Shown here: positions 33,945 through 37,795 of the stretch, one piece after another
How the letters are laid out: each line of letters begins with the position of its first letter
Position numbering within the stretch: position 1 is the stretch's first letter
DNA from: Methanoregula sp.
GTDB taxonomy: Archaea > Halobacteriota > Methanomicrobia > Methanomicrobiales > Methanospirillaceae
Assembly (NCBI RefSeq): GCF_003170075.1
Contig: NZ_PMZU01000038.1
Span: 1 to 51,877, forward strand
Length of the DNA stretch: 51,877 bases
Reading direction: 5' to 3'
The notes under the pieces: generated by a model
Seen by the model: only the letters and a program-made list of their open reading frames with translations
Told to the model about the DNA's origin: nothing
Databases searched by the model: none
Program-made: the position numbers and the translations under genes

Positions 33945-33969
33945 CCCTGCGTATATGACCTTTAAGGTA

Positions 33970-36387
33970 ATGCCTGAAGCGCAACTGAAGGTCGATTCCG
34001 CGTATCCCGGTGACCAAGGCGGGGGAAAAGCGCGACTCGATCCTGAAACCATGCTCCTTCTGAAAATTTCACCAGGGGATCTCGTGGTAATCGAGGGGAA
34101 ACGCCGGACCGTGGCAAAAGTCTGGCGATCCCTTGTCGAGGACTGGAACCAGCGCAAGATCCGGATCGACAATTTTACCCGGATCAATGCCGGTGTGAGC
34201 ATCGGGGACACCGTCAAGATATCGACGCTCTCTGAGGAGATCGAGGCAAAAAGGGTCGTGCTCGCTCCCCCAGAAGACCTCCCCAAGAAAATACCGATTG
34301 CCAATAACCCGCATGTGATTAACGGCCTCCTGGATTTCCCGGTCGTAAAAAACGATTCGATCCCGATCATGCTGGGCCTGCCGTTTGTCCAGCCGCAGAT
34401 CGTCGCGTTCAAGGTCGTCGAGATCGAGCCTGAGGAAGCTGTCATCATCACCAAGAATACTTCCATCGAGTTCTCCGACAAGCCGGCCGCTGGATTCGAA
34501 GGGGTCAAACGGTTCAGTTACGAGGATATCGGGGGATTAAAGGACGAGCTCCAGCGTCTCCGCGAGACGATCGAGCTGCCCCTCCGGCACCCGGAGCTCT
34601 TCCAGAAACTGGGGATCGAGCCGCCCAAGGGTGTGCTGCTCTACGGTCCGCCGGGGACAGGCAAGACGCTGATTGCAAAGGCGGTGGCAAGTGAGAGTGG
34701 TGCGCATTTCATCTCGATCGCCGGCCCAGAGGTAATCTCGAAATATTATGGCGAGAGCGAGCAGCGTCTCCGTGAGGTCTTTGAAGAGGCGCGGGAGAAC
34801 GCCCCCTCGATCATCTTCATTGATGAACTGGATTCCATTGCACCCAGAAGAGAAGATGTAACCGGCGAGGTTGAGCGCCGGGTCGTCGCCCAGCTCCTGA
34901 CGATGATGGACGGTCTCGAAGAACGCGGGCAGGTTGTCGTTATTGGTGCCACGAACCGTGTCGATGCGATCGATGCGGCCCTGCGCCGGCCCGGACGCTT
35001 CGACCGTGAGATCGAGATCGGTGTGCCCGGAGAACCGGATCGGATCGATATCCTGAAGATCCACACCCGGGGTATGCCGCTTGCCGAGGACGTAAACATT
35101 GCCACTCTCGCCCAGCAGACCCATGGGTTTGTCGGCGCCGACCTTGCTGCGCTTGCCCGGGAGGCGGCGATCCGTGCCCTGCGCCGGTACATGCCCGATC
35201 TCGATCTTGAGAAGGAGGAGATAGACCAGGAAACGCTCGATAAGCTCCGTGTGCTCGCAAGCGACTTCCGGAGCGCCCAGCGGGACGTGGGTCCGAGTGC
35301 GATGCGCGAAGTAATGCTCGAAGTCTCGCATGTAAAGTGGGAAGCGGTCGGCGGGCTTGACACGGCAAAGACCGAAGTCCGCGAGGCAGTCGAGTACCCC
35401 TTAACCCACCATGACCGGTTCGACGAGCTCGGGATTGTGCCGCCCCGGGGCGTGCTGCTCTATGGTCCACCCGGGACGGGCAAGACGCTGATCGCAAAGG
35501 CTGTCGCAAGCGAGAGCGGCGCCAATTTCATCCCGGTACGGGGGCCGCAGCTCCTCTCTAAGTGGGTGGGCGAAAGCGAACGGGCGGTACGCGAGATCTT
35601 CAAGAAGGCCCGTCAGGTATCTCCCTCGATCATCTTCTTTGACGAGATCGATGCGCTAGCCCCGGCACGGGGGACCTCAAGCGACTCCCATGTGATCGAT
35701 AATGTGCTCAACCAGATCTTAACCGAGATGGACGGCCTTGAGGAACTTAAGGACGTCGTGATCATGGGCGCGACCAACCGGCCGGATATCGTCGACCCGG
35801 CACTTCTCCGGGCCGGGCGTTTCGACCGGCTCGTCTACATCGGTGAGCCTACGTTAGAGGATCGCAGGAAGATCATCGGCATCCACACGCAGTTCATGCC
35901 TCTCGAAGGTTCGGCGCTCGAAGAGATTGTCGGCCTGACCGAAGGGTACAATGAGGACGCGCTCAGCGAACTGGTTGAGAAATTGGGGAAGGATGCAAAA
36001 ATTACTGCGGACACCGTAAAAGCGGCCATCATGCCGGCGGAAGATGCGGGTGCAGGGATCTCTAAAGGAGCAAGGCGGCGGAGGCTGGTCGACTTAATGT
36101 GCGAGAAGAACCTCACGTTCGAAGACCCGGTCCGGGACAAGGACCTTGCGGACCTTGCCCTGATAACCGAGGGATTCGTGGGTGCAGATCTCGAAGCGCT
36201 CTGCCGGGAGGCCGGGATGTTTGCGTTGCGGGATGGCGCAACGACGGTGACCCCGCAGCACTTTTCAGACGCCCAGAAAAAGGTTCACCCGACCATGAAC
36301 GACAACCTGCGGGACTATTACGGCAAGATCCAGCAGCATTTCAAGGGCGGGCTCCCAAAGAAGGTCCAGCCGCCGGAATACCAGTAG
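33970..36387 (+). CDS. cdc48: CDC48/VAT-type AAA+ ATPase
   Basis: An 805-residue Cdc48/p97 homologue that unfolds proteins for degradation or disassembly. Residues 1-90 form the N-terminal double-psi barrel ([19 protein letters not shown]), followed by the second N subdomain. D1 has Walker A GPPGTGKT at 226-233 and [13 protein letters not shown]2 has Walker A at 499-506 and [12 protein letters not shown]. The D2 lid carries an insertion of about 60 residues (roughly 655-723), including [12 protein letters not shown], so that two TEG motifs occur instead of one. The C-terminus (PPEYQ) has no HbYX proteasome motif. The ATG at 33955 is less likely given the TATA box. A VatN-like gene lies 190 bases downstream. 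Confidence 0.96.
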
Positions 36388-36544
36388 TTTCAATAATTTT
36401 CCGCCCTTTTTCGATCAGTGCAGCCCTGTGTCCTTGTGTCCCGGAAAATATTCCGTTGCCAAAAATTCCGGGAAAATGCCGTGTTCTGGAGACCTCCAAA
36501 AGAAAAATAAGGCAGGGAACATATACGAAACCAGAAATCAGGAA

Positions 36545-36553
36545 GTTATATAC
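36545..36553 (+). promoter_or_regulatory. Putative TATA box for the VatN/H1-tail gene
   Basis: GTTATATAC lies 24-32 bases upstream of the ATG at 36577, the spacing expected for a leaderless archaeal transcript. It indicates that this gene has its own promoter and is not only read through from cdc48. Confidence 0.5.
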
Positions 36554-36576
36554 CTGTTCATGACGGTTAATCCACT

Positions 36577-37185
36577 ATGCAGGAAGTCCGGTTAACCCTC
36601 AAGAAGCGGGCATTTCCAAGCCAGGGACGGGTGCGTCTCAATATCGCACACCTGCCCGCACTGGGAATCCATGAAGGGGAACACGTAGATCTCATCAATG
36701 AAGCCACTAAAAAATCCGTTACAACCTCTGTTATCGCTGACACCATGGTACGGGAAGGGCAGGTCCGCATAAGTGAAGAGGATCTCAAGACGCTTGGTCT
36801 TGACGATGACGATGAAGTTCTTGTCAGGAAGTCACTCAAACTGCAGGAAAAACTCTCCAAAGCCGCAGCAGAAACCAACACATCGATTTCTAAAGGTGTT
36901 GGCAAACTTGGCAGCGCGGCCAAAAAAACTGCCGATGAGGTGAAAACCGGGGCGGCAAAGACCGCAAACACGGTGAAAAAGGAGACGAAGAAGGCATCGG
37001 CGAGTATTGGGAAGGCTGCTGCAAAAACCGCAAATACGGTGAAAAAAGAGACAAAGAAAGCATCGGCGAGTGTTAAGAAGACTGCTGCAAAGACCGCAAA
37101 TACGGTGAAAAAAGAGACAAAGAAAGCATCGGCGAGTGTTAAGAAGACTGCTGCAAAGACCGCAAAAAAGGGAAAAAAACGGTAA
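36577..37185 (+). CDS. VatN-like double-psi barrel domain with histone-H1-like Lys/Ala repeat tail
   Basis: A 202-residue protein not recognised as a named family. Residues 1-90 show two similar halves: GRVRLNIAHLPALGIHEGEHVDL, shortened here to its key residues GRVRL and LGIxEGExVDL, and GQVRISEEDLKTLGL with DEVLV. This is the internal symmetry of a double-psi barrel such as the N-domain of CDC48/VAT or AbrB-like proteins. From residue about 95 the protein is almost only Lys, Ala, Thr, Ser and Val, including three 22-residue repeats starting AAKTANTVKKETKKASAS at 126, 148 and 170 and a partial fourth. The tail resembles histone H1 or bacterial H1-like proteins and should bind nucleic acid. 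It follows cdc48 by 190 bases. Confidence 0.85.
   Translation: MQEVRLTLKKRAFPSQGRVRLNIAHLPALGIHEGEHVDLINEATKKSVTTSVIADTMVREGQVRISEEDLKTLGLDDDDEVLVRKSLKLQEKLSKAAAETNTSISKGVGKLGSAAKKTADEVKTGAAKTANTVKKETKKASASIGKAAAKTANTVKKETKKASASVKKTAAKTANTVKKETKKASASVKKTAAKTAKKGKKR
36952..37182 (+). repeat. Tandem 66-bp coding repeats in the H1-like tail
   Basis: Unit 1 is 36952-37017, unit 2 is 37018-37083, unit 3 is 37084-37149, and a partial unit runs to the stop codon. Units 2 and 3 differ by a single base (aaa/aag Lys codon), indicating a recent duplication; unit 1 differs at several third positions and near its end (SIGKA instead of SVKKT). Confidence 0.9.
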
Positions 37186-37462
37186 AGAAGGCAACACGTA
37201 CCGGGGATGATCTGTAACGTGGTCTCTTTTTATGCAGAACCAGACAGGGGCCTCCCGGTTTTTTCACGGTAACGAAAATTTTCTGAAAGGTACACCGGTC
37301 GCACCTTAATCTCCCTCTCCGCAGTCTTACGGTACCCTGCCGCCGTCTTCAGATTGTGTCCAGCGGTCAAAAACCGGTGGCTGGAACGGCTGGATGTGCA
37401 GACCCATATCTCAATCTCTCCACAAGAATCAACCCGGCCAAAAAAAGTTCCTGCCCGGCCGT

Positions 37463-37795
37463 TTATTCGTTATACCGTCGCGCGTTGATCTTTGTGGCCA
37501 TGATAAAATCGTTTAAGGTCAGGCCGCCGGCCGGGTACGTGTAATACCCGACATCCACGAATTTTCCTTCCCGCATAGCAAGATCCGGGATGTGCCCCTC
37601 TTCGGTAGATATCGTCAGCACATCGTTTAAAAATTCGATGGACGTCTCACTGTCCTCGAACGTGAACGTGCGCTTTAAGTGCCCGTTATCAAGCGACCAG
37701 CCAGGCACCTCTTTTAAAAGTTCGACCGTATCCTTCCGTGTGAGCGGCGGCGAGCCGGGCTTGTATGTTGAGCATTTCTTCTGCGCGAGTTCCAT
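37463..37795 (-). CDS. Pterin-4a-carbinolamine dehydratase-like protein
   Basis: A 110-residue protein of the pterin-4a-carbinolamine dehydratase (PCD/DCoH) family. It aligns through PGWSLDNGHLKRTFTFED, FLNDVLTISTEEGHIPD and YPAGGLTLNDFIMATKIN. Two normally catalytic positions differ: the HHP motif reads HIP (His68, Ile69) and the downstream THxxGGLT reads TYPAGGLT (Tyr87). Activity on tetrahydrobiopterin intermediates is therefore doubtful. A role in molybdopterin or another pterin pathway has been proposed for prokaryotic homologues lacking an aromatic hydroxylase, but nothing here decides it. It diverges from the Lhr-like helicase. Confidence 0.83.
   Translation of the reverse strand: MELAQKKCSTYKPGSPPLTRKDTVELLKEVPGWSLDNGHLKRTFTFEDSETSIEFLNDVLTISTEEGHIPDLAMREGKFVDVGYYTYPAGGLTLNDFIMATKINARRYNE

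Follow-up and report, generated by a model that had tools for sequence, protein, structure and literature searches.

Gene A, as we call the open reading frame analysed here, is the first gene of a six-gene operon (A-B-C-D-E-F) in about 40 relatives. The copy carried by the window (the whole stretch of DNA that we analysed, a 51,877-nucleotide contig of Methanoregula sp.) stands beside cdc48 and is most simply read, from its flanks, as relocated. These results give an anonymous barrel protein and an orphan Prok-RING_2 zinc finger a place in one membrane-type operon, strictly conserved in methanogens, and they put a predicted helix of the apolipoprotein/synuclein type, built on 11 residues, in archaea and joined to a Cdc48-class barrel. 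They also remove a tempting but unsupported reading in terms of chromatin and Cdc48, which had been drawn from the gene order of a single genome.

The frame reported in the earlier note is present, together with the separate promoter ascribed to it there:

36577–37185, forward strand: gene A, an open reading frame of 202 amino acids (open reading frame list and translation).
36537–36576, forward strand: leaderless-type archaeal promoter with a TATA-like TTATATA (alignment of the upstream regions of about 28 orthologues).

Within this promoter, AGGAAGTTATATACC lies about 30 nt 5' of the ATG, and the TATA-like TTATATA about 25–30 nt. Most of the roughly 28 aligned orthologue upstream regions have AGGAAGATATTTACC in common at an equal distance from the ATG; the AGGAAGTTATATACC element, too, recurs there in most orthologues. 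Two further features mark the 3' end of the gene:

37173–37179, forward strand: run of seven A at or near a frame break (sequence).
37180–37217, forward strand: out-of-frame remainder encoding TVKKATRTGDDL and a stop, equivalent to the conserved C-terminus of the orthologues (frame comparison).

Past the A-run, the other frame gives KKTVKKATRTGDDL and a stop at 37215–37217. Since this reading agrees with the -DEL/-DDL ends of the relatives, we take the end of the frame at 37185 to be a frame break, one that removes the conserved C-terminal -DDL from the window copy. Leu is the last residue in 23 of the 27 tails examined, preceded mostly by an acidic or polar residue (the ending being mostly DEL or DDL). 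The break may stem from an error in sequencing or assembly, or it may be a true lesion.

The N-terminal part of the protein had been described as a two-fold symmetric barrel like the CDC48 N-domain, a description that held when we compared profiles:

36577–36834, forward strand: double-psi beta-barrel domain, residues 1–86 of gene A (Pfam, PDB profile, hhalign, AlphaFold2, Foldseek and internal repeat).

The single sequence, when searched against the PDB, returned only chance matches to Apaf-1, and a family profile was required. With a profile of 23 family members, hmmsearch retrieved Cdc48 (E 2.7e-3) and, more strongly, designed double-psi barrels (E 1.6e-5), while hhalign against the CDC48 N-domains of the same order gave a probability of 89.5 (E 2e-6, 80 columns, residues 1–85). 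An internal two-fold repeat at an offset of 44 lays residues 16–42 on 60–86, and none of 100 column shuffles scored as high. By both tests, the psi repeat and the match to solved barrels, the domain belongs to the double-psi beta-barrel superfamily, and we assign residues 1–86 to its CDC48-N class. Structure prediction from only two input sequences gave a moderate AlphaFold2 model (pLDDT 76, pTM 0.65), whose full length matched the double-psi designs 7du6 and 7du7 and the VCP-like barrel 7dg7 in Foldseek at TM of about 0.65, with E values of only 0.03–0.07. Because these E values are weak and other barrel folds rank similarly or higher, the fold assignment leans more on the sequence evidence. 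As for the AbrB/MazE swapped-hairpin barrel, where AbrB had been named for comparison in fold prediction, no such Pfam family matched at E up to 1, and we set it aside.

Gene A thus shares its fold class and internal two-fold repeat with the CDC48 N-terminal domain (PF02359, VatN-type), but differs from it in lacking AAA domains, in scoring below the Pfam gathering cut-off (20.2 bits against 35.1) and in having an invariant R-x-x-PS-x-GR-x-R of its own. The family invariants (R11, P14, S15, G17, R18, R20, D55, V58, R64, D69 and G74) are all present in the window copy. In all loci the gene stands alone, never N-terminal to a Cdc48-type AAA ATPase. Weaker profile matches among 295 genomes of the phylum were frames of the length of CDC48 and AMP phosphorylase; the N-terminal domain of the archaeal AMP phosphorylase, which our searches matched weakly, is unlike gene A in being fused to the phosphorylase and in having no basic tail.

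We searched 60 relatives and found strong gene A homologues in 27, which with one Methanoregula MAG made 28 loci outside the window's own genome. B directly followed A in all 28, always in the order A-B-C, and the genes after C, through F, were seen wherever the contig reached far enough. In a search of 295 genomes of the phylum, with the own genome set aside, 18 were positive for gene A; A to F lay within about 2 kb and in one order in every one of them, and the genomes with strong A matches and those with strong PF14445 matches were the same 18. The operon is found in the Methanoregulaceae and a few related genera. By inspection, B (about 127 aa) and E (about 115 aa) each have a single N-terminal hydrophobic stretch, a predicted transmembrane segment, with coiled-coil-like sequence, which in B follows the stretch. 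C (about 105 aa) and D (about 74 aa) are small helical proteins that share with E a D-x-Y-x-D...EW-x-L motif. F (about 100 aa) has four CxxC pairs and is a Prok-RING_2 zinc finger (PF14445, E 1.9e-26), above the curated cut-off in 18/18 A-bearing genomes; the likeness to this family belongs to F and not to gene A, and its ubiquitin-related role is putative. In one genome (G023, L058), the operon, there of the B-E type, is led by a variant paralogue of A whose C-terminus is a TrkA_C (RCK-C) domain (E 2e-7). The neighbours of the orthologues are thus membrane-anchored and zinc-finger genes, not genes of chromatin or the ribosome. Outside the operon, four loci of one genus (L110–L113; genus g53, family f8) carry Prok-RING_2 proteins of 61–71 aa that are above the Pfam cut-off and have no operon partners; these genes adjoin a dihydroxyacid-dehydratase-like gene.

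The literature that we searched held no description of the A-F operon; a 2011 survey of RING and treble-clef domains, which lies outside that search, may mention the neighbourhood. The parts are of known kinds, while their combination and the operon appear undescribed, and the earlier view that no named family has this architecture still stands.

None of the partners (B, C-E or F) was detectable in the window's assembly. As this assembly is 96.8% complete, they could be missing from it and not lost from the genome. A second copy of gene A in the same genome, of the TrkA_C type (contig C45, L002:1501–2340), is solitary and frame-broken; its broken frame and that of the window copy may be assembly errors or decay. 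The window copy has no partners in the assembly, an amplified tail and final residues that are out of frame, so we read it as a probable relict or solitary version. That it is a decaying pseudogene without function here, which is compatible with any other reading of the family, we consider a tentative possibility. The frame break, the likewise broken and partnerless paralogue and the absence of B-F all point that way, as does a pN/pS in the barrel of 0.34 against the sister genome G008, whose own gene A carries an internal TAG. Yet the window copy retains its promoter and every invariant barrel residue, its pN/pS is 0.10–0.17 against several other orthologues, and frame errors do occur in draft assemblies. 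The TAG of the sister gene (L006, G008:C391) is in frame and lies in the barrel, and its partners B and C are open.

The remainder of the protein had been taken for a tail of 22-residue Lys/Ala repeats resembling histone H1. The repeats are there; their finer unit is 11 residues:

36835–37182, forward strand: Lys/Ala/Val/Thr tail of 11-residue repeats, a predicted continuous amphipathic helix (hydrophobic period, helical wheel and AlphaFold2).
36955–37178, forward strand: 66-bp tandem repeat, 3.4 copies with 91% matches, which lengthens the tail in the window copy (tandem-repeat analysis).

Each 66-bp unit encodes 22 residues, or twice 11 (KTANTVKKETK + KASASVKKTAA). A helix of 11 residues in three turns advances 98.2 degrees per residue. 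The hydrophobic period of the window tail is 98.5 degrees (0/300 shuffles), and the best angle is 97.5–99.5 degrees in 26 of 27 tails, unmatched by any of 300 shuffles in 25; the tails thus have the 11/3 amphipathic period of lipid-binding 11-residue-repeat helices. The period is weak in the two shortest tails (L029, 86/300 shuffles; L030, best angle 95.5 and 10/300). On the pooled wheel, Val, Leu, Ile and Ala sit at 0 degrees with Ala, Thr and Val alongside, Lys flanks this face at 98–131 degrees either way, and the opposite face is enriched in acidic residues. AlphaFold2 models residues 89–200 as one helix with moderate confidence, and the Pfam matches on the tail are apolipoproteins. Hydrophobic moments of five tails, computed over whole tails, are 0.30–0.38, within the range of the values tabulated segment by segment for other helices: alpha-synuclein (0.30), Plin3 (0.35) and apoA-I (0.39; PMC5889406). 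Gene A tails thus share with the helices of alpha-synuclein, the apolipoproteins and the perilipins the 11/3 period, a Lys-flanked apolar face and a similar moment; unlike them, they are archaeal and joined to a barrel, and the likeness is one of pattern and not of sequence family, with lipid binding a prediction. A search for anti-phage systems gave only a match of the coiled-coil type to ZorA on the tail, which we took as an effect of composition.

Eleven-residue repeats also make coiled coils, which counts against the lipid-helix reading. The tail could be a hendecad strand that assembles with B, C, D or E and never touches lipid, as would fit its apolar spacing (4-3-4 per 11 residues), the coiled-coil-like nature of B-E and the strict linkage of A-F. 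Sequence by itself fits this reading and lipid binding alike. We hold the strand possible but unlikely, as the apolar face is short of bulky residues (being made of Ala, Thr and Val) and its flanks are dominated by Lys in the manner of surface-seeking helices.

Doubtful, and clearly more so, is that gene A uses the lysines of its tail, in the fashion of H1, to bind nucleic acid in a chromatin-like role, which the note had supposed, or a different polyanion such as polyphosphate. The net charge of the window tail (+27, the highest among gene A tails) and of L033 (+20) would suit it, but most orthologue tails carry 0 to +14 and those of L010 and L011 end acidic. Bacterial H1-like tails (AlgP, PhaF) are Lys/Ala-rich, disordered AAKP repeats; gene A tails are likewise Lys/Ala-rich repeats, but almost devoid of proline (0–4 per tail), with a strong amphipathic period and a predicted helix in place of disorder. 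The membrane-type neighbours also weigh against a chromatin protein. An H1 tail is less likely than an amphipathic helix lying along the membrane or packed against coiled-coil partners.

We therefore give about an even chance to A-F encoding an uncharacterised complex at the membrane periphery, with gene A as its barrel subunit and the window copy as a relocated orphan. The single N-terminal transmembrane segments of B and E would anchor the assembly. The tail would fold on contact into an 11/3 amphipathic helix and rest on the inner face of the membrane, or partly on the B and E coiled coils; the unusually basic tail of the window copy would also suit a polyanion. The barrel may serve as a binding module, like the CDC48 N-domain, and the zinc finger F as a second one. 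A bolder version of the membrane-peripheral complex, in which the transmembrane coiled coils and the alpha-synuclein-like helix would hold the barrel and the RING-type finger at the membrane as an archaeal machine for quality control or remodelling that follows ERAD logic, possibly drawing CDC48, the proteasome or a tag of the ubiquitin type to its clients in the membrane, is a long shot.

The site of the window copy is unusual for the family. Its neighbours are:

33955–36387, forward strand: cdc48, upstream of gene A (CDC48 NCBIfam, 940 bits), with no link to it by conserved context.
37463–37795, reverse strand: pterin-carbinolamine-dehydratase-like gene (pcd), which directly follows cdc48 in G010 and marks the probable insertion site of gene A.

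In the window gene A lies between these two, while a complete genome of the same genus (G010) has cdc48, then pcd, then a helicase, with no A at the site. Because G010 has the same flanking genes without A, the gene was most simply inserted in the lineage of the window. At the DNA level, similarity with the operon copies sets in about 40 bp 5' of the ATG, at the promoter; the copy would thus most simply have moved with its own promoter. No repeats longer than 8 bases, as a signature of a mobile element, are shared by the flanks of the inserted gene. None of the 28 other A loci lies beside cdc48, nor does A follow cdc48 at any of 29 other loci of that gene. The earlier note had tied its reading to homologues lying near cdc48 and keeping basic tails; the first expectation failed, and the second held in kind, the charge being mostly mild. 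That gene A is a CDC48 adaptor, adjacent for co-function (in the earlier form, one bringing CDC48 activity to DNA or ribosomes), has the adjacency in the window and the CDC48-N class of the barrel in its favour, and deserves hardly any credence against that absence of linkage elsewhere, the separate promoter and the same site without A in G010.

Two observations on the cdc48 region stand apart. The roughly 650 intergenic nt between cdc48 and pcd in G010 (L116) are rich in repeated CGATCGG/CCGATC-like motifs. In two other genomes (L138:1501–4731 of G018 and L139:1501–4665 of G003) cdc48 is about 250–270 residues longer, and the addition, which comes after the second AAA module and before the C-terminus, resembles lid-region repeats ('RRRKI..L' units).
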